Below, piece by piece: positions 1-10,438 of a stretch of 11,999 nucleotides of DNA. Every line of letters begins with the position of its first letter. The stretch's first letter is position 1. Source of the DNA: Sulfurovum sp. bin170 (GTDB taxonomy: Bacteria; Campylobacterota; Campylobacteria; Campylobacterales; Sulfurovaceae); assembly GCF_010892395.1 (NCBI RefSeq), contig NZ_JAACKB010000366.1, forward strand, positions 1 through 11,999, given 5' to 3'. Made by a program: the position numbers and the translations under genes. The notes beneath the pieces were generated by a model. It ran no database searches. It was not told the DNA's origin and was given only the letters and a program-made list of their open reading frames with translations.

Positions 1-831
1 AATATTCCTCACTCTCTATTCATTCCACCTCAGGAGAGGTGGAACGAGAAAGGAACCGATGGCTTTAACCTCGCAATATTCGGGACTAAAGTCTCCGATT
101 CCAAAGTGTTTTACAAGATGTCGAATAAGAGTATAGAGAATAAAAACAATTTTCTCTCTTTTTATCAATATGAGAGTATGAAAGCATTTCAAAAGTTAAA
201 AAATCTAAAAAGTTTAAAAAACAGTTTTATTTTTCATAGAAGTGGAGATATTAAATATAGCTCTTCAAAATATAAAACAGCAAACTCTTTCACATTTTCT
301 CGTTCCATCCTCTCTGAGGTGGAACGCATAGGCAGTAACAACAAAAATCAACGATTGAATCTTCTAAACATTCCACCTCAGAGAGGATGGAACGAGAAGC
401 ACGCTTTGGAATCGGAGACTTTAGTCCCGAATATAACGATGCTAAAGCCATCGTTTCCTAGTTTTTCAAGAAGTATTTTAAATAAAAATTCAAAATATTC
501 ATTCAATTCAAATCAGAATATAGTGTGTGACATGGTCACACCTACGGAGCTAAACTATAACAGAGCAGATAACACAATCGTAGAGATAACTTACAAAAAA
601 GAGAATATAAAAAAAGAGGAACAAAATACCAACTCATACAGTAACATTAACTCCCCAATAACTATAAAAAATGGTGTAGAGGTAACAGATAGCCATGAAG
701 AGAAGATAGAGAATTTAATAAACACTGTAGAGCAGAGAGTTATCCAAAGAGTCAGCTCTGATGTGATGGCAAAAGTTGAAGCAAAATGGAGTCGTGAAAT
801 CATGAGAAGAGGAGGAGACTATGGCAGATAG
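1..831 (+). CDS. Repeat-rich eCIS-linked hypothetical protein (5' partial)
   Basis: Function not recognised. The frame is open from the first base of the window, so the start probably lies upstream. The first GTG (106) falls directly after a repeat core, has no evident ribosome binding site and is unlikely to be the true start. At least 276 residues are visible, low in complexity and rich in Asn, Ser and Lys. Much of the first half is made of palindromic repeats read in frame: IPPQERWNEK and IFGTKVSDSK near the left edge, FSRSILSEVE, then IPPQRGWNEK, ALESETLVPN and PSFSRSIL. The last ~75 residues differ: a charged, probably amphipathic helix (EEKIENLINTVEQRVIQRV...) ending SREIMRRGGDYGR. The gene overlaps the tube gene by 11 bases, which suggests translational coupling. 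In other eCIS loci I recall a linker-rich protein with a basic C-terminal helix just before a gp19 gene; calling this the same family is inference. It has no signal peptide or membrane segment in the visible part. Confidence 0.6.
   Translation, partial: NIPHSLFIPPQERWNEKGTDGFNLAIFGTKVSDSKVFYKMSNKSIENKNNFLSFYQYESMKAFQKLKNLKSLKNSFIFHRSGDIKYSSSKYKTANSFTFSRSILSEVERIGSNNKNQRLNLLNIPPQRGWNEKHALESETLVPNITMLKPSFPSFSRSILNKNSKYSFNSNQNIVCDMVTPTELNYNRADNTIVEITYKKENIKKEEQNTNSYSNINSPITIKNGVEVTDSHEEKIENLINTVEQRVIQRVSSDVMAKVEAKWSREIMRRGGDYGR
21..120 (-). repeat. Palindromic coding repeat, copy 1
   Basis: The core at 51-105 is the reverse complement of the cores at 405-459 and 9223-9277, with five differences from the 9223 copy over 55 bases. 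To its left lies a palindromic end (23-31 pairing with 36-44, TTCCACCTC/GAGGTGGAA, followed by CGAGAA). To its right, 106-120 is the reverse complement of the CATCTTG(C/T)AAAAC end seen at 9208. The plus-strand frame reads through it as GTDGFNLAIFGTKVSDSK, which closely matches the minus-strand frame of the 9223 copy. Confidence 0.85.
297..398. repeat. Exact 28-base inverted repeat, 46-base spacer
   Basis: Bases 297-324 are the exact reverse complement of 371-398. Each arm is the same end module found beside repeat copy 1 (TTCCACCTC... followed by AACGAGAA), and each arm is itself partly palindromic. Both arms are translated in frame in the surrounding gene (FSRSILSEVE on the left, IPPQRGWNEK on the right). 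The right arm also forms the left end of repeat copy 2. Confidence 0.85.
369..474 (+). repeat. Palindromic coding repeat, copy 2
   Basis: The core at 405-459 shares its first 27 bases exactly with the other two copies and has five differences from the 9223 copy overall. Its left end is the TTCCACCTC/GGATGGAA palindromic module (369-398). Its right end (460-474, AGTTTTTCAAGAAGT) matches the right end of the 9223 copy at 13 of 15 bases. It is translated in frame as ALESETLVPN followed by LKPSFPSFSRS, the same frame as the copy in the gpI-like gene. Confidence 0.85.
525..541. repeat. Short perfect palindrome
   Basis: GTGTGAC, three bases, GTCACAC: a 7-base perfect inverted repeat inside the first gene (read as VCDMVTP). 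It could be the remnant of another small palindromic element or chance. No second copy was found in the window. Confidence 0.4.
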
Positions 832-1267
832 TAGAGCAAAAAAAATACTAAATTTTAGATTTTTAGTAGAGTTTAATGGCATTGTAGTAGGTGGCTTTTC
901 AGAAGTGAGTGGTTTTGAGCAAACGATAGAGACGGAGGATTATAGAGAGGGGGGAGGTTACTTTGTCCATAAACTTCCAAAAGCAGTTGTGCAAAGTACA
1001 CTCAAACTCAAGAGTGGCATGAGTGTTGATGATGAGCTATGGAGATGGTTTTCTCGCTGTAGAGATGCGGTACTATATGGACAAGCGCTGGAAAAGAAGA
1101 GTATCAAAGTGACTATGTTAGATGAAGCTAGAGGAGTACAGACCTATTTTGTTTTTAACAACGCCTACCCTATTAAGTGGAGTAGTACAACACTTAGTGC
1201 TACTAGTAACTCTGTGGCTATTGAAGAGTTAGAGATTGCCCATGAGGGTATGGTAAGGAGCAAGTAG
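821..1267 (+). CDS. gp19-like tube protein, probable tube initiator (Afp5-like)
   Basis: A 148-residue protein of the T4 gp19 tail-tube family. The typical opening is visible (LNFRFLVEFNGIVVGGFSEVSGFEQTIE: a beta strand, then the G-F-x-E-V-S-G turn), as are the YREGGG segment, the LKLKSGMSVDDELWRWF segment, and a late strand pair (YFVFNNAYPIKWSSTTLSA, VAIEELEIAHEGM). Such subunits form hexameric rings of the inner tube. Its place directly before the LysM adaptor and hub genes matches the Afp5/PVC5 position, so it is more likely the first ring that joins the tube to the hub than the main tube protein; this is inferred from order only. The ATG is preceded by a strong AGGAGG stretch at 810-815, and its stop shares one base with the next start. 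Confidence 0.85.
   Translation: MADSRAKKILNFRFLVEFNGIVVGGFSEVSGFEQTIETEDYREGGGYFVHKLPKAVVQSTLKLKSGMSVDDELWRWFSRCRDAVLYGQALEKKSIKVTMLDEARGVQTYFVFNNAYPIKWSSTTLSATSNSVAIEELEIAHEGMVRSK
1256..1260 (+). promoter_or_regulatory. RBS supporting the GTG start at 1267
   Basis: AGGAG lies six bases before GTG 1267. The alternative in-frame ATG at 1276 has only a GGAG that sits too close (about two bases), so the GTG that overlaps the previous stop (TAGTG) is preferred. Confidence 0.6.
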
Positions 1268-1893
1268 TGGAGAAGATGACAATCAATATAATGGCAGGTG
1301 AGTATAAAGATGAATCTTTCGAGTTGCCGTTTAATCCCAATGAGTATACAGAAACTCTAACCAATATCTATAAAGAAGATGAGCTTGTTGGACTCAAAAA
1401 TGCGATTGACCAGTTCAAGAGTATCAAAGAGGGTGATTTGACTCTAAATCTTCTTTTTGATACGACAAGTGAAGGGATAGATGTTAGAGTTCAACTGTTT
1501 AATTTGGATGATATTAGCAGGATGGATAAGAAGTTACATGCACCTCCACCTTGTCAATTTGTTTGGGGGTCGCTTACCTTTTATGGGGTTGTTAGTGAGT
1601 ATAGCCGTAAGTTTACCTACTTCTATAGTGATGGAACACCAGCACGAGCCAATGTGACGCTCAAACTCAAACGCTACAAGAGTACCGAGGAGATTGAAAA
1701 AGAGAATGAACTTCACTCATCAGATGTCACTAAAGTCCATCAACTAAAAGAGGGTGAATCACTATTTTATTTAGCACACAATCATTATCAAGACCCCACA
1801 CTATGGCGTAAGTTGGCTAGAGATAATGGGATTGATGACCCACTTAATATAGAACTGGGTTCTATGGTGAGATTAGCACCAAAGGATAAGTAA
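1267..1893 (+). CDS. LysM-containing tube-hub adaptor (Afp7-like)
   Basis: 208 residues. The first ~140 resemble the contractile-injection-system tube-protein N-terminal domain: FELPFNPNEYTET near the start, a DLTLNLLFDTT strand, then PPPCQFVWGSLTFYGVVSEYSRKFTYFYSDGTP and a closing VTLKLKRY. Residues ~157-205 form a LysM-type module (LKEGESLFYLAHNHYQDPTLWRKLARDNGI... ending GSMVRLAP). In Afp/PVC this protein sits between the inner tube and the spike hub; in such adaptors LysM may act as a structural clamp and not as a peptidoglycan binder. Its position between tube and hub genes supports the role. The start is GTG, and its TAA stop overlaps the next ATG by one base (TAATG). Confidence 0.85.
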   Translation: MEKMTINIMAGEYKDESFELPFNPNEYTETLTNIYKEDELVGLKNAIDQFKSIKEGDLTLNLLFDTTSEGIDVRVQLFNLDDISRMDKKLHAPPPCQFVWGSLTFYGVVSEYSRKFTYFYSDGTPARANVTLKLKRYKSTEEIEKENELHSSDVTKVHQLKEGESLFYLAHNHYQDPTLWRKLARDNGIDDPLNIELGSMVRLAPKDK

Positions 1894-2969
1894 TGTCCTC
1901 ACTAGCCTCCAAAAACCAAGAGTTTAATGCCCCCGAGGTTGAGGTTCTTATCGATGGAGAGTTGATTAGTAAATCTCATCTCTATGTCACCAACTTAGAG
2001 GTTGATTTGAGTAGTGAGATGGCTTCGCTCTTTAGTATGACTATTACCAAGACAATAAGTGACACATTAGAGATAACAGAGCCTTGGATTTTCAAGATGG
2101 GTGCTAGTGTGAAGATTCGTATAGGGTATCTAAGTGAGTTTGTGGATGTGATGGATGGAGTTATAAGCTCTGTGACTTATCACTATGGAGATGATAAACA
2201 TTTGAGCATAGAGGTCGAGGGGTGTGATTTGCTCTTTTTGCTTATGAAAAAGTATAATCAGAGAAGCTTTTCGGAGATGAGTGATAGTGAGGTGGCTAGT
2301 GCTGTTATTGCTAATTATGGCTTAGAGAGTGATATAGAGGATAGTGGGGTTATCTACAACCATATACAACAAGACCATGAGAGTGATTTCTCTTTTCTTG
2401 CACGACTTGCAAAGAGATGTGGTTTTGAATTCCATAGTAGAGGTGAGACTATCTGTTTTAAGTCACCTGCTGTTGATAGAGCCACAGATGAAGTTTTTAC
2501 TTTTGGTGTTACTCCTTTGCAAATTAGTTGTCGGCATGACATTACTCATCTCTTTGAGTCTGTAAAGACACAGGGGTGGGATGTACTAAATAGAGAGGCG
2601 ATTGCAGAGGAGTCAACTTTGGATGAGGTAGGTAGTGTGGAGAGTAGTTGGGAGAGTGCTTCTGCTTCTCTTGATAGATTGGGGCTTTCTGATATATCCT
2701 ATCCTCTTAGTGAAAACTATGAGAATAGTGAGTCAGCAAAGTCTGAGGCAGATGCGATGATGAGGAGATTTGCTTATACTTTTGTAGAACTGAAAGGCTC
2801 GATAATCGGAGTACCAACACTAGCCCCTTCCACGGTGATAGAGCTAAAAGGTTTTTGTAGAGAACACAATGGTAAGTACTATCTAACGCGTGTGATTCAT
2901 CGTATTGGTGAAGAGGGTTTTACAACCCACTTTGAGATGAGAGGAGACAGAATCCATGAATCCCTTTGA
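1893..2969 (+). CDS. gp27/gpD-like spike hub protein
   Basis: 358 residues of the phage late-control gene D / T4 gp27 family, the trimeric hub that adapts the six-fold tube to the three-fold spike. Visible family features: an N-terminal strand series (PEVEVLIDGELIS, LEVDLSSEMASLFSMTI), MGASVKIRIGYLSEFVDVMDGVISSV, a small helical insert (MSDSEVASAVIANYGL), then ESDFSFLARLAKRCGFEFHSRGETICF, the segment typical of gpD/VgrG proteins. The final part (GSIIGVPTLAPSTVIELKGF, GKYYLTRVIHRI) closes the barrel. In Afp8/PVC8 and VgrG this domain is fused to the gp5 domain; here the spike is a separate gene whose ATG lies 14 bases before this stop, so the two are probably translated together. No frameshift is evident, so the split looks genuine. 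Confidence 0.87.
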   Translation: MSSLASKNQEFNAPEVEVLIDGELISKSHLYVTNLEVDLSSEMASLFSMTITKTISDTLEITEPWIFKMGASVKIRIGYLSEFVDVMDGVISSVTYHYGDDKHLSIEVEGCDLLFLLMKKYNQRSFSEMSDSEVASAVIANYGLESDIEDSGVIYNHIQQDHESDFSFLARLAKRCGFEFHSRGETICFKSPAVDRATDEVFTFGVTPLQISCRHDITHLFESVKTQGWDVLNREAIAEESTLDEVGSVESSWESASASLDRLGLSDISYPLSENYENSESAKSEADAMMRRFAYTFVELKGSIIGVPTLAPSTVIELKGFCREHNGKYYLTRVIHRIGEEGFTTHFEMRGDRIHESL

Positions 2970-3678
2970 GAGAATAAAAAGTACAACCCAAAATGGAGAG
3001 CATAAGGGTGTTGTATCTGCTTTGGTTGTGGATAATGTTGACCCTGAATCATTTGGACGCATAAAAGTACAGTTTAACTGGCTACAAGAGGGTGAGCAAT
3101 CATTTTGGGCAAGAGTCTCAACCCCTATGGCAGGGAGTGAGCAGGGAATCTATTTTATTCCTGAGATTGATGATGAGGTTTTGGTGGTCTTTGAACATGG
3201 CAAGATTGAGTATCCTGTGGTTATTGGTTCTCTCTGGAGTGGTCTAAATCTTCCTCCACAGAACAATGATGATGAGAAGAATAACATTAGACAAATAGTC
3301 TCTAGAAGTGGTCACTCACTAACTTTTGATGATAGTGATGGGGAGGAGAAGTTGACTTTAGCATCATCAGATGAGCATAAGATTGAGTTTGATGACAAGA
3401 GTAAAACGGTGACTCTGCTAAGTAAAGGGGGACACACGATAGTGATTAATGATGATAAAAATGAGATTTTAATCCAAGATAGTGGTGGTAGTGAGATAAA
3501 GATGGAGGCAAATAGTGGCAAAGTCTCCATCAAAAGTAGTGGTGACCTCATCTTGGAGGGTGGTATGAATGTAACAATAAAAGCAGGAGCTTCACTGAAA
3601 CTAGAGGGTGGAAGTGGTACGGAGCTAATAAGCTCTGCTATTACTACTATCAAAGGTTCACTAGTGAAGATAAACTGA
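2956..3678 (+). CDS. gp5/VgrG-like spike protein (OB fold plus beta-helix)
   Basis: 240 residues. Residues ~15-95 form the phage base V OB fold (GVVSALVVDNVDPESFGRIKV, FWARVSTPMAGSEQGIYF, IDDEVLVVFEHG, YPVVIGSLWSG). From ~110 onward there are short alternating strands with Gly/Ser/Asp turns (HSLTFDDSDGEEKLTL, HKIEFDDKSKTVTLL, GHTIVINDDKNEILI, GKVSIKSSGDLIL, ASLKLEGG), as expected of the triple-stranded beta-helix needle. No lysozyme domain is present, unlike T4 gp5. The trimer should sit on the gp27-like hub and be capped by the PAAR protein encoded next. GAGGAG lies nine bases upstream of the ATG. The gene overlaps the hub gene by 14 bases and the PAAR gene by one (TGATG). Confidence 0.9.
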   Translation: MNPFERIKSTTQNGEHKGVVSALVVDNVDPESFGRIKVQFNWLQEGEQSFWARVSTPMAGSEQGIYFIPEIDDEVLVVFEHGKIEYPVVIGSLWSGLNLPPQNNDDEKNNIRQIVSRSGHSLTFDDSDGEEKLTLASSDEHKIEFDDKSKTVTLLSKGGHTIVINDDKNEILIQDSGGSEIKMEANSGKVSIKSSGDLILEGGMNVTIKAGASLKLEGGSGTELISSAITTIKGSLVKIN

Positions 3679-3974
3679 TGGGAAATCCAGTAGCTAGAGT
3701 GGGCGATACCACTTCACACGGAACACCACTCTCTCCTGGTCCAGGGAGTGCCAATGTGCTTATCGGTGGGCTTCCTGCTTGGCGAGTGGGGATAGACTTT
3801 CATGCCTGTCCACTGGTAACAGGTACAGTACCTCATGTTGGTGGCATGGTTGTTATGGGTAGTACAACGGTGTTTATAAACGGTATGCCTGTTGCTCGTA
3901 TGGGTGATAGTATAGTAGAGAGTGGTCCTCCCAATAGCATCGCTATGGGTGAGGCTACTGTATTGATTGGCTAG
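3678..3974 (+). CDS. PAAR-repeat spike tip protein (Afp10-like)
   Basis: 98 residues with PAAR motifs throughout: PVARVGDTTSHGTPLSPG, GGLPAWRVGIDFHACP, FINGMPVARMGDS, AMGEATVLIG. The PAAR cone sharpens the spike and is held by one metal ion. Candidate ligands are His14, His42, Cys44 and His53, which fit the three-His one-Cys zinc site of known PAAR proteins. There is no C-terminal extension, so no toxin is fused to the tip; cargo, if any, must be loaded otherwise. The ATG overlaps the spike gene stop by one base. PAAR precedes gp25 here, whereas in Afp the gp25 gene (afp9) comes before PAAR (afp10). Confidence 0.93.
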   Translation: MGNPVARVGDTTSHGTPLSPGPGSANVLIGGLPAWRVGIDFHACPLVTGTVPHVGGMVVMGSTTVFINGMPVARMGDSIVESGPPNSIAMGEATVLIG

Positions 3975-3983
3975 GAGAGTGTT

Positions 3984-4373
3984 ATGAAGAGAGAATTTTT
4001 AGGACGTGGATGGAAATTTCCTGTCGATATTGGTGATGATGGAGCATTTCTACTTAGTGAAGAGAGTGAGGATATTAGAGAAGCTATTTTGATTATACTC
4101 AAAACTGCCAAAGGTGAGAGGGTGATGGAGCCAGAGTTTGGTTGTGGGATTCACTCTTTTGTTTTTGAGGTGATTAACTCGGTCACCATGACGCGTATGA
4201 GAGAGGATATTCGAAAAGCTCTACTTCTTTATGAACCACGGATAGAGGTGATGGATATTCGAAGTGAGTATATAGATAGTGGTATTTTGAAGTTTGATAT
4301 TGAGTATCGAGTTATAAGTACCAATAGTAGATACAATATAGTCTATCCCTACCATATGAGCGAGGGGCGTTGA
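3984..4373 (+). CDS. gp25-like baseplate wedge protein (Afp9-like)
   Basis: 129 residues of the GpW/gp25 family. The hallmark helix and loop are present (SEDIREAILIILKTAKGERVMEPEFGCGIHSFVFE, residues ~25-60), including the GER-M-P-FG stretch that in T4 gp25 and TssE joins sheath to baseplate. It ends with strands (RIEVMDIRSEYIDSGILKFDIEYRV). Gp25 nucleates the first sheath ring and binds the J/gp6 wedge, whose gene follows directly. AGGAG at 3973-3977 lies six bases before the ATG; the gap to the PAAR gene is nine bases. Confidence 0.92.
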   Translation: MKREFLGRGWKFPVDIGDDGAFLLSEESEDIREAILIILKTAKGERVMEPEFGCGIHSFVFEVINSVTMTRMREDIRKALLLYEPRIEVMDIRSEYIDSGILKFDIEYRVISTNSRYNIVYPYHMSEGR

Positions 4374-4374
4374 G

Positions 4375-6924
4375 ATGAGACCACCAATATTGACACTAGA
4401 TAAAGTAGAAGATTTTGAGAACTCCATAAGAGATTTAATTCCCTCATATCTTCCAGAGTGGAAACCAAGAGATGGTGAGGTGGGTTGGGCTGTGGCTAAA
4501 TCCTTTAGTCAGATGTCCACACAGATTGCTAATCGACTCAACAGAGTACCTCAAAAACTCTTTTTATCCTATCTTGACAGACTAGAGATGAGACCCAAAG
4601 AGGCACAATCAGCCCTAACTCCGATAGAGTTTAAGTTACGAAAAAAAGGAGCCAAATCAGCACGGATACCTATAAAAAGTCAGCTTATGAGTCAATCAAA
4701 AGAGGTTTTTGAGACGCAAAGTGAGTTTACAGCGATGAGAGCAGAGATACTCTCTTGCTATTTTGTTAATAAGAGAGAGGATACCATCAGTGATATATGG
4801 TCACAACTTATCGCTAAAAAAGATGCTTTTTTGGACTCCAAGGGTGAAGCGAATAGGCATGAACTCTATATTAGAGATGATAAACTTTTCCGTTTTCAAA
4901 AAGGTTATGGAGAGAGACAGAGGGTTACTCTGCGTATTCCATATCAAGAAGATAGCCAAAAAGATATAAAGTGGTTCTATTGGGAAGATAATGGAGAGCT
5001 TCAAAGATGGATAGAGTTTAGAAAAAAAGTTGGAAAACGGTATATCTATCTAAAAAAGAAGCAAACAACACCAACCTCCACTACCACGGTTAATGGTGAA
5101 GAGGGATATTGGATTAGAGCCACGATAGATGTTGTAGATAAACCAATAAGTATAGATAATTTTGCTATTCGTCTAAGTTCGATTAGTGGACTTGATGCCT
5201 CTTTTACCAATGATGTGCCTATTGATTTGAGTGAAATTTTTTTCCCTTTTGGAGAGGAGCCTAAGCTTGAAGATAGCTGGTATCTAGCTTCAACGGAGGG
5301 GTTTTCAAAGAGTGGTCATAAGGTAAAATTACTCTTGGATAATATAGGTTTACTAACAGATGGTAAAGCTACTCTATCATGGGAGTACAATAGTGGTAAA
5401 AGTTGGCAACAATTGAATATAAAATATAGAGAAAAAGATGTTATATTTACCATACCCAATGATATTAATCTCTTTAAACACAATGATATAGAGAGCTACT
5501 GGATACGGGTGCGTATTGTTGCAGGTGGATATGCTCAAACCACGATTAATACAGCTCAGGTAGTAACCAAAGAGTGTCTAAGTTCAGAAGGAAAAACAAC
5601 CACCTTTGAGATTACTCAAAATGCACTAAGCACCACCTATACAGCACCAACATTGAGCTTTAACTATATAACAGTCAAAGGGTCAACAGAGGAGTTTCAA
5701 ACTATTATTGCCTACAATAATTATAATTATAAAAAACATCAAAAGATACCAACTCCTATCTTTAAAAGTTTTGAGGGTAGAGATAGGTCTCTCTATTTGG
5801 GATTTGATAACCCTTTTGAGTTGGGGTTAGTAAGTCTCTTTTTTGCTGTAGCTATTCGTCAGCTAAAACTCACTCGTACTATTAAGTGCTTCTATGAAGA
5901 TATAGATTCTACATGGAGAAAACTAAAAATAGAGGATAAGAGCCAAGCACTTCAAAACAGTGGAACCATAAGTTTTTTGGCTCCAAGTGAGCAGAGAGCA
6001 TCTACGCTATTTGCCACTTTGGCATATTGGATTAGGATTGATTTTATTGAGGATAGCTCCCAAACAACGGAGGCGAAGCCTTCTGATTCCAACTTTTTTG
6101 ATATACCAGTAGGAGATGGTGACCAAGGGGATATTATCCAAGGCATCTATCTAAACAGTGTTTGGGCTAAATATAGTCATGGTGGAGAGGTTGGAGCCAA
6201 CGGAGAAGCTCACAGTGTCAAGAAATTAATCACTACAATACCTGCTGTCAAGGAGGTTACCAATCCACTCTCTATAGCAGGAGGAGCCAAAGCAGAGTCC
6301 AATGAGAAGCTTATCCAAAAAGCACCTGCTAGGATACGCCATCGTAATCGTGGCATTAATCAGCAAGATATTGAATCACTAGTCTATGAAGCTTCAGCAG
6401 ACATAGCACAAGCAAAACTTTTTTCATTAAGTGAAAGTGGTAGTAACAGTGTTGTTCTCCTGCCATTTTTAGATGAACCGATGCCAAAACCTTCCTTTCT
6501 GCTTCGTCAGCAGATAGCGGAGTATCTTGATTCAAGAATCTCTGCCGTATCTTCACTAGAAGTAATTGCTCCTGAATATGTTTGTATCAATGTAGTAGCC
6601 ACTCTTCACACCAAAGAGGTCTCTTACGCAGACCGTATTCATGAAGATACTTTAAGTTCCCTTGAATCTTATCTACATCCATTGAGTGGGAAAATTAATG
6701 GAGCTGGATGGGAGTTTGGAGAATCTGTATGCCTATCAGATGTAATTGGTCTGTTGGAGCATATCCCCTATGTGGATTATATAAGTAATATTGAGGTGAT
6801 AATGAAGAGTGCTAATGATAAGAGAGTTCTTAGTGACTCAAATAGTAAATCTATACCGATTCCCCCTTATGCACTTATTGCATCAGGTGAACATAAAATC
6901 ATAGTAGTGGAGGTAGAGAGATGA
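4375..6924 (+). CDS. Baseplate J/gp6-type wedge protein 1 (Afp11-like)
   Basis: 849 residues, resembling the putative baseplate assembly protein family TIGR02243. N-terminal signature: WKPRDGEVGWAVAKSFSQM, then ANRLNRVPQKLFLSYLDRLEM and PKEAQSALTPIEFKL (residues ~30-85). A middle region of strands includes FPFGEEPKLEDSWYLAS (~290) and several ...YWIRVRI repeats. The J-type core begins at ~636 (GGAKAESNEKLIQKAPARIRHRNRGIN, then QQDIESLVYEAS). The C-terminal wedge has YLHPL at 766 and GWEFG at 778. These proteins dimerise into the iris-like ring around the hub and bind gp25. It starts two bases after the gp25 stop and overlaps the next gene as ATGA. It shares motifs with the protein encoded immediately downstream, so the two are likely paralogues. 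Confidence 0.88.
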   Translation: MRPPILTLDKVEDFENSIRDLIPSYLPEWKPRDGEVGWAVAKSFSQMSTQIANRLNRVPQKLFLSYLDRLEMRPKEAQSALTPIEFKLRKKGAKSARIPIKSQLMSQSKEVFETQSEFTAMRAEILSCYFVNKREDTISDIWSQLIAKKDAFLDSKGEANRHELYIRDDKLFRFQKGYGERQRVTLRIPYQEDSQKDIKWFYWEDNGELQRWIEFRKKVGKRYIYLKKKQTTPTSTTTVNGEEGYWIRATIDVVDKPISIDNFAIRLSSISGLDASFTNDVPIDLSEIFFPFGEEPKLEDSWYLASTEGFSKSGHKVKLLLDNIGLLTDGKATLSWEYNSGKSWQQLNIKYREKDVIFTIPNDINLFKHNDIESYWIRVRIVAGGYAQTTINTAQVVTKECLSSEGKTTTFEITQNALSTTYTAPTLSFNYITVKGSTEEFQTIIAYNNYNYKKHQKIPTPIFKSFEGRDRSLYLGFDNPFELGLVSLFFAVAIRQLKLTRTIKCFYEDIDSTWRKLKIEDKSQALQNSGTISFLAPSEQRASTLFATLAYWIRIDFIEDSSQTTEAKPSDSNFFDIPVGDGDQGDIIQGIYLNSVWAKYSHGGEVGANGEAHSVKKLITTIPAVKEVTNPLSIAGGAKAESNEKLIQKAPARIRHRNRGINQQDIESLVYEASADIAQAKLFSLSESGSNSVVLLPFLDEPMPKPSFLLRQQIAEYLDSRISAVSSLEVIAPEYVCINVVATLHTKEVSYADRIHEDTLSSLESYLHPLSGKINGAGWEFGESVCLSDVIGLLEHIPYVDYISNIEVIMKSANDKRVLSDSNSKSIPIPPYALIASGEHKIIVVEVER

Positions 6925-8801
6925 GTATTATAGTACCAGAGCTTGATGATATTGGATACAGAGAGTTCAGAGAGGAGTCAGAGGCTAGATTGCCCAAAGA
7001 TGCCCCAAGATGGAGTGAGCATAATCTATCAGACCCAGGGATTACCTTTTTGGAGATGCTATCGTGGCTAAGTGATATTGAACTCTATCGGCTCAATCGT
7101 ATTACCCCTAAGCACCTACAGAAGTTTTTGGCACTTCTTGGAGACCACTACCCTAGTGCCAGAGCTTCAAAGGGGATGATTGTCTCTACGGAGGGTGTCT
7201 CATCTGATATAAAAATTGATGTAGGAACGGCTATTGAGATGGAGATAAACCAGAGAAAAAGAGTCTTTCGTACCAAAAATAGATTTTGTGGAAATCCTGC
7301 TAAAATTGACCGTATTGATGTATTTAGAGAGAGTGAATTGTTTATATCACGACGAGTTGATAGTGGTGAGATTGAGCCTTTTTATGCTTTTGGAGAGGAG
7401 CCTAAAGAGGAGAACTTTTTCCGTCTCATTTTAAATGGGATTCCCTCAAAAGATCTAAATCTATATATTGAACTAGATGAGTCTAATCTTCCCTCTTATA
7501 ATCAGGAGTGGAGAGATGATTATCTATGGTTGCAAGAGCATGATAGTATTAAATTAGAGTGGTATATAACTATAGATGATGTAACTTATTGGATAGAACC
7601 AAAAGAGGATAAGAGTCTAAATCTTCGTTATAGTGGTATGGTTTCATTTACAATTGACAAACCAATTAGTAGCAGTGCAAAAGTTTTAATAATATGTAGA
7701 TTGAAAAACAGCTCATATATGATTGCCCCTTTTATCAAAAATATCTATCTTAACAGTATAGAGATAGAGCAGAGTGAAGCTATAGTGGAGAGGATAACAA
7801 GTAGTGGTGAAGCGAATCAAGAGTTGACTTTGGGTCATGAGTCTCTGTTGGATGCTAAGGGTAGTGGAGTTGCTATTGAGGTAGAGAGTGGTGGCAAGAT
7901 AGAGTCTTGGAGGCGTGTTGATACGCTTCAAAACTCCAAAGAGGAGGATAGAGATTTTATCTATGATAATACCACACAAAAGGTTCTCTTTGGAGATGGG
8001 CAGAGAGGTTCTATCGCTCCGTATGGCGATACTATTATCTGCAAATATCTTATAACTAGAGGTGAGAGTGGAGTAGTAGCCAATAGGGCTGACTCTTGGA
8101 CTATTAAAGGTTTTGAAGCGTTAAATTTTTATAATCCTAGAGGCATTAATGGTGCAGAGTCTATCCCTAGTTATGAGAGACGCTTTGCTACGATTATAGA
8201 GCGTTGGAAAACACCTACACAGGCTGTAACACTAGAGGATTATGAGACCCTTGCCAAGATGACAGCAGGTCTGCGTGTAGCAAGAGTAAAAGCTTTTGTA
8301 GATAAGCAAAAAAAGAACTGTGTAGCTGTTGTTGTTGTCCCATATAGTAGAGGTGACTATCCAATGCCTGATGATTTCTTCTGTAGACGAGTCTGTAGAT
8401 TTTTGGATAGCAGACGGCTTATTACCACAGTTATAGATGTTATCAAACCAATCTATACAGAGGTGGGAATCACTCTTCACATAAAAATTCATGCACATTT
8501 TGACATGGGGCGAGTTCGCAGAGACAGTGTAGAGGCTATTGATGAGTATCTACATCCACTAAGAGGTGGAGATGATAAGAGTGGTTGGGAGTTTGGGCGT
8601 GGAGTCTATGTTTCAGATATATATGCTCTAGTTGAGTCTATAGAGGGTATCTCATGTATATTTGATATATCATTTCATGGAGAGGGAACATATGATAACA
8701 GAAAAAAAGTATATACCATCGAAAAGAAGTCGCTTATTAGAAGTCTAGTTCATAGAGTGACATTTGAAAAGAGTAGCCTAGCGTGTGGAGGTGCATTGTG
8801 A
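6921..8801 (+). CDS. Baseplate J/gp6-type wedge protein 2
   Basis: 626 residues, again TIGR02243-like. It opens with the classic sequence WSEHNLSDPGITFLEMLSWL then YRLNRITPKHLQKFLALLG (residues ~31-74). It has FGEEPKEENFFRL near 156, matching FGEEPKLEDSWYL in the preceding protein. VLFGDGQRGSIAPYGDTI (~350) is the J-family FGDG-G-PG turn. After it come NPRGINGAES and RWKTPTQAVTLEDYETLAKM (~407-450). The C-terminus carries YLHPL at 543 and GWEFG at 555, with the same 12-residue spacing as in the first wedge protein. Two tandem wedge genes of unequal size suggest a heterodimeric wedge, comparable to Afp11/Afp12 or gp6/gp7, although both here are recognisably J-like. ATGA overlap with the upstream gene; GTGA overlap with the downstream one. 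Confidence 0.87.
   Translation: MSIIVPELDDIGYREFREESEARLPKDAPRWSEHNLSDPGITFLEMLSWLSDIELYRLNRITPKHLQKFLALLGDHYPSARASKGMIVSTEGVSSDIKIDVGTAIEMEINQRKRVFRTKNRFCGNPAKIDRIDVFRESELFISRRVDSGEIEPFYAFGEEPKEENFFRLILNGIPSKDLNLYIELDESNLPSYNQEWRDDYLWLQEHDSIKLEWYITIDDVTYWIEPKEDKSLNLRYSGMVSFTIDKPISSSAKVLIICRLKNSSYMIAPFIKNIYLNSIEIEQSEAIVERITSSGEANQELTLGHESLLDAKGSGVAIEVESGGKIESWRRVDTLQNSKEEDRDFIYDNTTQKVLFGDGQRGSIAPYGDTIICKYLITRGESGVVANRADSWTIKGFEALNFYNPRGINGAESIPSYERRFATIIERWKTPTQAVTLEDYETLAKMTAGLRVARVKAFVDKQKKNCVAVVVVPYSRGDYPMPDDFFCRRVCRFLDSRRLITTVIDVIKPIYTEVGITLHIKIHAHFDMGRVRRDSVEAIDEYLHPLRGGDDKSGWEFGRGVYVSDIYALVESIEGISCIFDISFHGEGTYDNRKKVYTIEKKSLIRSLVHRVTFEKSSLACGGAL
8787..8791 (+). promoter_or_regulatory. 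RBS that fixes the start of the gpI-like gene at GTG 8798
   Basis: GGAGG lies six bases before GTG 8798, which overlaps the previous stop as GTGA. An earlier in-frame GTG at 8783 would place this ribosome binding site inside the coding region and has none of its own, so it is rejected. Confidence 0.75.
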
Positions 8802-10438
8802 AAAAGAAAAAACAACAATTTATAAGTGCAGAGAGAATCAAGGGGGATAGCAACTACTCTATTGATAAGAATGGAGTATCTCTGCCGTCTAAGATGCGTT
8901 CTGTTAGCTATCCACCCCAAAAACTAGATTTTCTTATCAAAGCATTCTGCTATAGAGATCACAGAGATGAGTTACTTCTATTAGATAATTTTGGGCTGAT
9001 TTGGCGATACTATAGTAGTGTGGAGACTCTTCAAAAAACAGCTTTACAATTTGATGAACCCATCAAAGATATTGAATCTATTGGAGAGATAGTTATTGTT
9101 CAGTTCAACGAGCGTATAGAGGGTCACTTCTTGGCTAATGGACAGACCATATGGAGCAGAAATATTGTAGCCTCTTCCATCTCTAAATATAGTGAAAAGT
9201 TAATAGACATCTTGCAAAACTCTTTGGAATCGGAGACTTTAGTCCCGAACAAGACGAGGCTAAAGCCATCGGTTCCTAGTTTTGCAAGATGTCTAATAGC
9301 TATAAAAGAGAACGCTACTGATGAGCCGATAGTTTTAAATGAGGGTGGTGAGATTGTCTCTGTAGATAAACCATCATCATATCCTCTTGAAGACTGCATG
9401 GGTAGGAGTTGGAAGTTGGAGAGTGGAGAGCTTAGATATTCAATGCAGAGTCGTGAATATATATCACAAAACAGCCCTCTATATCTATTGGTGGATTCGC
9501 TAGAGTATAATACTCGTTGGCACAAGATATTCATAGATTATGATACTCCAGATGAGTGTGATATTCGCATGGAGGTAGTAGCAAGTAATGAGAATCCATT
9601 ACCTGATGGTAGCTCTTATACAACTATAAAAAATCTAAACAGAGATACGCTTCTGCCTGATAATCTTCAAGGACAATACCTATTTTTGAAAATATATCTA
9701 ATCGGAGACCAGACACTCCAAAACTCACCAACAATCAAAAGTCTAAGAGTAATCTATCCTCGCTCAACCTACCTAGAGTATCTACCAACTTACTATCACG
9801 AGAATGAAAAATCTGCCATGATATTGGAGCGTTTTTTCTCTATATTTGAAACCACATTCTTAGAACTCGAAGAAAGAAGAGCCAATACCCCTTCACTTAT
9901 AGATAGCAAAGAGACCTCAAAAAAGAATTTGGCATGGCTCTCTAGCTGGTTGGGGTTAACCTATGATGAGAGTTGGGATGAGAAGAGTTGGCGAAAGCTT
10001 ATCAGTGAAGCTCCAAAACTTTTTGATATTCGTGGTACGAGAAAGGGTATTGAACGAGTCATTGAAATCTATAGTGGCACTGTTCCACTCATTCAAGAGC
10101 CTATGCATAGACGATGTCAAAAAGATAAAGATATAGACAACTATAGCTTTTGTGTTTTTCTAAAACCTGAACAGTATAACAACATGGAGGAGGTGAAGAC
10201 AATCAGACGCATAGTAGAGGAGTGGAAACCTGCCTATACAAAAGCTAGTGTAGTTCCCCTAGAGCATAATATCCTTTTGGGAAGTTATGTTTTTTTGGAA
10301 ATCAATACGAAGCTTGAAAAGAGAAAAGTGCATCTAGGTGATGTTCGGATACCTTTTGGTGGGTTGGCTCCTGCTACCGAGGGTGATATGAGAAGTTTGG
10401 AACGCGTACGCATTGATAGTGATGCCATTTTACATTAA
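8798..10438 (+). CDS. gpI-like phage tail protein (TIGR02242 type) carrying a repeat insertion
   Basis: 546 residues from GTG 8798. Residues ~326-450 match the gpI-like tail protein domain: YLEYLPTYYHENEKSAMILERFFSIFE, LEERRANTPSLIDSK, LAWLSSWLGLTYDESW (~378) and FDIRGTRKGIERVIEIYSG (409-427). In phage P2, gpI pairs with J at the outer baseplate; in eCIS loci this gene regularly follows the J-type genes, as here. The first ~320 residues show strands like those of a beta-propeller or beta-sandwich (LLLLDNFGLIWRYYSS, GEIVIVQFNERIEGHFL), followed by an SPTIKSLRVIYPR strand. The oddity is residues ~136-166, encoded by a 92-base palindromic repeat (SLESETLVPN, LKPSVPSFARC) that is also found twice in the first gene. 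It keeps the frame open, so the protein is probably still made, with the insert as a surface loop. The start codon is GTG with GGAGG at the right distance. Confidence 0.85.
   Translation: MKKKKQQFISAERIKGDSNYSIDKNGVSLPSKMRSVSYPPQKLDFLIKAFCYRDHRDELLLLDNFGLIWRYYSSVETLQKTALQFDEPIKDIESIGEIVIVQFNERIEGHFLANGQTIWSRNIVASSISKYSEKLIDILQNSLESETLVPNKTRLKPSVPSFARCLIAIKENATDEPIVLNEGGEIVSVDKPSSYPLEDCMGRSWKLESGELRYSMQSREYISQNSPLYLLVDSLEYNTRWHKIFIDYDTPDECDIRMEVVASNENPLPDGSSYTTIKNLNRDTLLPDNLQGQYLFLKIYLIGDQTLQNSPTIKSLRVIYPRSTYLEYLPTYYHENEKSAMILERFFSIFETTFLELEERRANTPSLIDSKETSKKNLAWLSSWLGLTYDESWDEKSWRKLISEAPKLFDIRGTRKGIERVIEIYSGTVPLIQEPMHRRCQKDKDIDNYSFCVFLKPEQYNNMEEVKTIRRIVEEWKPAYTKASVVPLEHNILLGSYVFLEINTKLEKRKVHLGDVRIPFGGLAPATEGDMRSLERVRIDSDAILH
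9204..9295 (+). repeat. Palindromic coding repeat, copy 3 (92-base hairpin)
   Basis: Perfect 18-base terminal inverted repeats (9204-9221 TAGACATCTTGCAAAACT, 9278-9295) enclose the 55-base core (9223-9277). The core is itself an imperfect palindrome: 9226-9247 against 9255-9276 matches at 16 of 22 positions, three of the others being G-U in RNA, with a 7-base loop at 9248-9254. An asymmetric internal loop separates the two stems. The plus frame reads SLESETLVPNKTRLKPSVPSF; the minus strand is also open here (GTDGFSLVLFGTKVSDSKEF). Confidence 0.9.

Follow-up and report, generated by a model that had tools for sequence, protein, structure and literature searches.

A palindromic miniature element with IS5-type ends and a REP-like core occurs in frame within protein genes of Sulfurovum

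How can one short sequence lie inside two different genes of the same contig? The question is raised by contig C411 of Sulfurovum sp. bin170 (assembly of 2.12 Mb in 462 contigs, 83% complete), the entire 11,999 nucleotides of which are referred to here as the window. According to a Pfam scan, this contig codes part of a contractile injection system, and its products comprise a gp19-like tube protein, a GPD hub, a spike-base domain, two baseplate-J-like proteins, Tail_P2_I and a PASTA protein. A first-pass annotation had described three copies of a 55-base repeat, all in coding sequence and open on both strands, and had taken them for a mobile sequence able to insert into a gene in either orientation. 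The three copies were found where it had placed them, with 27 bases (TTTGGAATCGGAGACTTTAGTCCCGAA) common to all. The repeat is real, but its 55 bases are the middle of a 90-bp element with 17-bp ends and AAT flanks; the copy at 9223 is full, whereas those at 51 (minus strand) and 401 (plus strand) are partial, with one terminal repeat each. The true ends, the target duplication, the transposase family and the covariation of the hairpins had been missed. We consider it very probable that the element is a miniature inverted-repeat transposable element (MITE), in which ends of the IS5 family (ISL2-like) of insertion sequences (ISs) surround a core resembling repetitive extragenic palindromic (REP) sequences, and which would be moved in trans and survive in frame as peptide inserts.

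The full unit is an imperfect palindrome, in which 17-bp terminal repeats and short spacers enclose a 51-bp core with two hairpins headed by GGAA. When folded as single-stranded DNA, the window copy with its flanks is predicted to form one long hairpin (-25.7 kcal/mol, z -7.08), which none of 200 shuffles equalled. The sequence next to the right hairpin reads CGTC in some copies, including that of the window, and CGTT or CGTA in others. Among 45 full copies collected with a fuzzy pattern (27 from the own genome and 18 from other records), the site showed the layout ANT-AGAC...GTCT-ANT, with a 3-bp duplication. Identical bases precede and follow the element in 25 of the 27 own copies and in 17 of the 18 others. 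Position -2 held an A in 24 of the 27 own and 13 of the 18 other copies, and position +2 held a T in 23 own copies and in all 18 others; the T and the A adjoining the element were fixed in the pattern (TAGAC / GTCTA) used for these counts. Longer composites were observed in L034, L047, L048 and others, where extra modules, CCAATGCCAATGAATTA and a GTGTTTACAC hairpin, adjoin the core.

The 90-bp full copies are short and carry no transposase of their own. An autonomous relative with the same ends was present in the genus. At L237, a 903-bp IS (838-1740) with the ends AGACATCTTGCAAAACT / AGTTTTGCAAGAAGTCT is flanked by ACT on both sides and contains a match to PF13359 (DDE_Tnp_4; 76.6 bits against a cut-off of 24.8). 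A near twin is located at a contig end (L236), and two relatives of 925 bp (L241) and 924 bp (L243) are flanked by ATT / ATT. Compared with the window copy, the left ends of the IS in L236 and L237 are identical and the right ends differ by one base. The target duplications of the three IS copies with both flanks, ACT, ATT and ATT, are of the same ANT kind as those of the MITE. ISL2-group elements duplicate ANT. The 903-bp IS contains two open reading frames (ORFs) whose overlap includes eight consecutive A, an arrangement that suggests -1 frameshifting. The NCBIfam model of the IS5 family transposase (NF033581) matches both ORFs with 47 and 122 bits, each half falling below the whole-protein cut-off of 140. 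Of the IS5/ISL2-group ISs listed in PMC3196728, two (914 and 916 bp) use a -1 shift, and another, 991 bp long, has just one ORF.

The first-pass annotation had staked its proposal on further copies in the genome. A 23-mer covering half of the element (GGAATCGGAGACTTTAGTCCCGA) gave 125 matches in the own genome (61 forward and 64 reverse, with up to 3 mismatches), among which composite copies may be counted more than once, and its reversed control gave none; a chance repeat was thereby ruled out. Over the DNA stretches retrieved, a profile of full copies yielded 226 distinct copies, 134 from the own genome and 92 from other records, deduplicated by flanking sequence with a possible error of a few; 65 were nearly full length. 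The unlisted 23-mer matches entered this set only where another search named them. The exact degenerate form occurred in 16 of 60 genomes, comprising 16 of 34 of the genus (own included; 15 of 33 relatives) and none of the 26 from elsewhere. When 398 genomes of the order were searched more loosely, with the genus thinly sampled and up to 2 candidates scored per genome, copies were found in nine: the own genome, one other of its genus, five from the same family and two from other families. The copies in the last two (G185 and G374) were 82-87% identical, for which transfer and binning error are both possible. At least 80 entries with the repeat were found elsewhere, and 80 of 80 were titled as metagenome-assembled genomes of Sulfurovum, Sulfurovaceae, Campylobacteraceae, Campylobacterales, Campylobacterota or Epsilonproteobacteria. 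A phage or plasmid origin was rejected: the exact degenerate pattern had no match in viral contigs, and plasmid and phage collections gave no match at E 1e-5.

A clean gap against element-free orthologues, which the first-pass annotation had proposed as a check, was found in trmB. Residues 1-131 and 161-432 of the own TrmB match adjoining places in the relatives (33 of 34 genomes match). The own gene has exactly 93 extra nt at this point, and the extra length is 0 in 29 of the 29 relatives examined (of 32 with a match; 30 loci). The own site reads CC-ATT-AGAG...ATCT-ATT-TGAA; the implied empty site, CCATTT, is present as such in 4 of the 29 relatives, most others having CCTTTT. For the P-type ATPase, the own gene has 66 nt at the corresponding place, 27 relatives have 21 nt and one has 27 nt, and one locus was without both flanks. 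In CarB, the large chain of carbamoyl-phosphate synthase, the core is present in G014, and also in G033 at a shifted position and with a worn terminal repeat; 26 other loci are without the core and one lacked a flank. Insertion of the core thus did not simply add 51 nt to CarB and the P-type ATPase. CysNC has two distant orthologues of about 50% identity in the genus, which were not used as empty sites. Other palindrome-like inserts were seen in the CarB linker (L246, L253 and L254), namely GTTCGGTAACACCGAAC, which reads RFGNTE, in G000 and G020, and CTTCGGCTACGCTCAGTGAACG in G023; several families of repeats may share the linker between the CarB halves as an insertion hot spot. A RAYT-type (REP-associated tyrosine transposase) protein in L202 likewise ends in RFGNTEH.

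We then considered the copies inside genes. A stop-free frame of at least 100 amino acids (aa) spans 53 of the 226 copies (23 of 134 own and 30 of 92 other). By codon scores, whose classes (coding-like, weak) are heuristic, the flanks of 44 of the 53 copies (20 own and 24 other), in 41 ORFs, show coding-like codon use; 34 of these copies are read in sense and 10 in antisense. A Pfam scan of 32 of the 41 host ORFs identified a family at E 0.001 in 28, of which L161 had only a sub-cut-off TPR match. The hosts include CarB, DnaX, TrmB, CysNC, PTS enzyme I, HsdR, a UvrD-like helicase, a flavoprotein of the fumarate reductase/succinate dehydrogenase type, a CoaBC-type flavoprotein, HypF (two inserts), a P-type ATPase and DnaE. 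By our reading, 19 of 29 inserts in Pfam-matched proteins (L161 excluded) are located outside the best listed stretches, 2 at an edge and 8 inside. In the DnaE host (L070 2-3484), the element (280-301) lies inside the stretch 141-365 that matches an intein-splicing domain. At L062 5616-6851 (minus strand), a single ORF carries UPF0227 and HD domains with an antisense element between them, possibly a fusion made by the element. Four more insert-bearing database proteins (P0020-P0023) comprise one that is glycosyltransferase-like, with the insert just before IAGDGE, one of the NlpC type, and two in which the insert is near the N-terminus.

Taken with the duplications, the TrmB empty site and the autonomous IS, these unrelated hosts bear out the view that a mobile sequence lands in genes in either direction with the frame kept open. 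As to mechanism, the transposase of a 903-bp-type IS would move the 90-bp element in trans. Whichever way it points, an insertion that keeps the frame would leave the gene readable, because 90 + 3 bp make 31 codons and the consensus is open on each strand. Tolerated copies would persist as peptide inserts, mostly outside annotated domains, and others would be lost or be intergenic. The terminal repeats would probably wear away afterwards until the core is left, and the insert would be present in the mature protein. If instead the insert were removed or skipped at the RNA or translation level, by splicing or by ribosome bypass over the hairpin, the frame would be irrelevant and many split genes would be expected. 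The strong hairpin formed by the element and the conserved enzymes among the hosts would suit such removal. However, of 138 non-spanning copies with 200 nt to either side, only 7 are bordered left and right by coding-like frames of one strand, compared with the 44 spanning copies, which are open by definition; some of the seven may be neighbouring genes, so that few copies look gene-breaking. Similarly, all 10 measured coding full copies are 90 bp (1 not measured), whereas the noncoding full copies are mixed (18 of 90 bp, 24 of 91 bp, 4 of other lengths and 7 not measured), a comparison subject to the same circularity. We therefore judge removal or skipping highly improbable. The Fisher test of in-frame versus other lengths (p 0.0013) was discarded as evidence of selection, being partly circular, since the coding call requires a spanning frame.

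Openness on both strands had also been presented as a property of the element. It holds for the 90-bp consensus, which has one open frame per strand, but it needs no special explanation: 48% of 4000 controls in which only the interior between the terminal repeats was shuffled were likewise open on both strands, as were 18.5% of plain shuffles, and of the 53 noncoding full copies, 29 have one or more frames open from end to end. Openness was consequently rejected as a sign of selection.

The recurrent sense peptide is DFLQNSLESETLVPNxTRLKPSVPSFAR, and the antisense peptide is KLGTDGFSLVLFGTKVSDSKEFCK; both occur in unrelated hosts. Could this be a peptide or domain that was domesticated for a function and kept by selection on its aa sequence? 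The 33 core or partial coding copies are distributed as 20 and 5 in two sense frames and 4 and 1 in two antisense frames, with 3 unassigned; the excess of sense over antisense (25:5, p 0.0003) and of one sense frame over the other (20:5, p 0.004) is what such selection would predict, and a related peptide occurs in two homologues of the first host gene of the window. Against it, the full coding copies are balanced (6 sense and 5 antisense) and encode unrelated peptides in the two directions, and most copies lie outside any spanning long frame. The hairpins offer a further argument. A perfect 3-bp stem was present in the left hairpin of 171 of 177 motif-fitting copies (of the 226), in five types: GAC/GTC (111), GGC/GCC (46), GTG/CAC (7), GAG/CTC (6) and GCG/CGC (1). 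These counts are biased towards the first two types, which are favoured by the patterns near GACTTTAGTC / GGCTTTAGCC with which most copies were gathered. The right hairpin was paired in 130 of 141 motif-fitting copies. The degenerate pattern permitted unpaired mixtures, yet among the matches listed all were paired. Compensatory changes in the stem convert ETLVP to EALAP or ETSVP, and therefore much of the peptide variation is explained by stem pairing. As judged from sequence comparison, the conserved feature appears to be the pairing of the hairpins, and the peptide looks like a by-product. Domestication for the peptide is accordingly an improbable explanation, and the MITE interpretation is preferred.

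A more serious alternative is that the core is the mobile unit, as a REP sequence or bacterial interspersed mosaic element (BIME) that owes its spread to a Y1 tyrosine transposase of the RAYT or IS200/IS605 kind, and that the IS5-like ends were acquired secondarily. Core-only matches are common, and the core consists of two facing GGAA-headed hairpins with a bulge and a TTTA loop. The own genome also contains five Y1 matches, four of them above the cut-off, and on C87 (L203 / L205) a decayed IS200/IS605-like remnant, with a Y1 piece and a putative TnpB-like ORF, adjoins core hairpins of the GAC and GTG types. However, at none of the five Y1 places in the own genome was the core found on the flanks of an intact Y1 gene. 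Two own-genome genes exceed the cut-off of the RAYT model NF047646, and the one on C352 is flanked by a different repeat. Moreover, the CarB core of G033 appears to be an eroded full element, because DFLPSS is kept, which we read as a worn DFLQNS of the left terminal repeat; at least that core would then derive from a full element. We regard movement of the core by itself as doubtful.

With the MITE interpretation in place, the copies of the window can be described (Table 1). The first-pass annotation had placed all three in coding sequence. This holds for the copy at 9223, within the Tail_P2_I gene, and for that at 401, which scores as coding, whereas the copy at 51 has only a weak codon score. 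Although no Pfam family matched the ORF carrying the two partial copies, it is considered a real gene because it has three homologues besides its own record (P0027-P0029). The Tail_P2_I protein has 30 extra residues, in two alignment gaps, relative to P0005 and P0007 in pairwise alignments; the boundary was less clean against P0008, and the alignments with P0012, P0001, P0009 and P0011 were uninformative. A multiple alignment placed the insert raggedly. In a search of 34 genus genomes for orthologues of this protein, all matches listed outside its own locus overlap the insert only. A second palindromic repeat adjoins both partial elements, and 6 copies of it were present in the own-genome DNA retrieved. 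The same repeat (ATTCCACCTC...GAGGTGGAAC) flanks the RAYT gene (NF047646) on C352, at L204 360-385 and 1024-1049.

Table 1. Coordinates of the element, its parts, the adjoining repeats and the host genes in the window.
Feature	Position	Strand	Remarks
Full-length element (MITE), 90 bp, AGAC...GTCT	9205..9294	+	frame in host gene reads ...DILQNSLESETLVPNKTRLKPSVPSFARCL...
Left target duplication AAT	9202..9204	.	ANT pattern from full copies
Right target duplication AAT	9295..9297	.	ANT pattern from full copies
Left terminal inverted repeat AGACATCTTGCAAAACT	9205..9221	+	letters identical to left end of 903-bp IS in L237
Right terminal inverted repeat (AGTTTTGCAAGATGTCT on + strand)	9278..9294	-	1 base off right end of L237 IS
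51-bp core, two facing REP-like hairpins (GGAA + bulged stem, TTTA loop)	9226..9276	+	
Partial copy	401..478	+	core 408-458 and worn right terminal repeat; no left terminal repeat; second repeat abuts
Partial copy	51..126	-	core 52-102 and left terminal repeat 103-126; no right terminal repeat; second repeat abuts
Second palindromic repeat (ATTCCACCTC...GAGGTGGAACG)	15..50	+	type as repeats flanking RAYT genes on C352
Second palindromic repeat	297..331	-	
Second palindromic repeat	364..398	+	
Host gene 1 (5' end beyond contig), neighbour of injection-system tube gene	1..831	+	two partial copies
Host gene 2, Tail_P2_I baseplate-type protein	8783..10438	+	start suggested nearer 8798 by homologue alignment

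Several observations weigh against the proposed origin and insertion of the element. PF13359 matched in few genomes of the genus, 5 of 34, with 3 above the cut-off, and the own genome (83% complete) yielded no transposase of either PF13359 or PF01609; a PF01609 transposase, being absent there, was dropped as a candidate parent. None of the four IS loci (L236, L237, L241 and L243) showed the core. The genic state is that of a minority, since 173 of the 226 copies are without a spanning long frame. The core inserts in CarB and the P-type ATPase amount to net lengths of 39, 48 and 45 nt, not 51 or 93. Finally, host gene 1 bears on a possibility raised by the first-pass annotation, that orthologues carry the same peptide at the same place. 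This was seen to a limited extent, in gene 1 only: P0027 and P0029 hold NSLESTYLHPNITKLKSSFPSFTRYLLN or a similar sequence, a degenerate sense copy, just before the FYQYE motif, at the site where the window gene has its antisense copy, and P0028 has no copy at that place. The sense copy argues against a purely recent insertion at this site, where the palindrome may have inserted more than once or become inverted.

The ends, the target duplication, an empty site and an autonomous relative can all be observed here within a single lineage, making the process testable at the bench, and the phenomenon extends beyond the intracellular Rickettsiales into an environmental lineage. We tentatively propose, as a step that may well prove wrong, that this MITE lineage settled on a gene-tolerated 90-bp form (31 codons, a polar, proline-rich sense peptide and a protein-tolerance filter) and is a continuing source of in-frame inserts in core enzymes, which would give Rickettsia-type palindromes a visible transposase. 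For annotators, LESETLVPN...RLKPSVP, or GTDGFSL..FGTKVSDS on the other strand, can serve as a peptide tag of the element; it should not be taken for a conserved domain.

To our knowledge, the origin and movement of protein-coding palindromes such as the Rickettsia palindromic elements (RPEs) are not settled, and we know of no sequence kinship between RPEs and the present element. RPE-named models exist in the NCBIfam library, and none was among the NCBIfam matches listed for four insert-bearing hosts (for one host, 25 of 45 families). RPEs and the Wolbachia palindromic elements are described as dispersed palindromes of about 100-150 bp, located in frame in unrelated genes and also between genes (PMC10969869, PMC2229807, PMC3767692), and a table in PMC2229807 enters the RPE target duplication as '?'. 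The Sulfurovum element is likewise palindromic, dispersed and in frame inside unrelated protein genes, so that the likeness to RPEs noted in the first-pass annotation stands as regards behaviour; however, it belongs to another phylum and has identified ends, a 3-bp ANT duplication and an autonomous IS, and we read it as a separate family. With IS5-family (ISL2 group) MITEs it shares the 17-bp terminal repeats and the ANT duplication, common with the 903-bp IS, and differs in its REP-like double hairpin and its in-frame genic copies. Among the titles and abstracts listed in searches on palindromes, MITEs, REPs and ISs of Sulfurovum or Epsilonproteobacteria, none reports this element, PMC3733652 being compared by its text.

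In the text of PMC3733652, intragenic REPs of the GTAG and CGTC families are short hairpins in genes of many species, and Sulfurovum sp. NBC37-1 has both tags. The core described here differs from these in that it lies inside transposon ends with a duplication and is headed by GGAA; on that textual description it would be distinct, and an overlap with one of the REP families is possible. QMITE2 of Coxiella burnetii is, similarly, a MITE containing a REP; PMC5896051 places it mainly in 3' untranslated or intergenic sequence, with duplications of 7-11 nt, and names some in-frame cases. The likeness is a MITE with a REP inside, and the difference lies in that mainly untranslated or intergenic location and in those 7-11 nt duplications as against the 3-bp ANT. 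RPEs and intragenic REPs make the phenomenon known in kind, and what would be new is that an IS5-type MITE, built around a REP-like core, behaves in the manner of a protein-coding palindrome.

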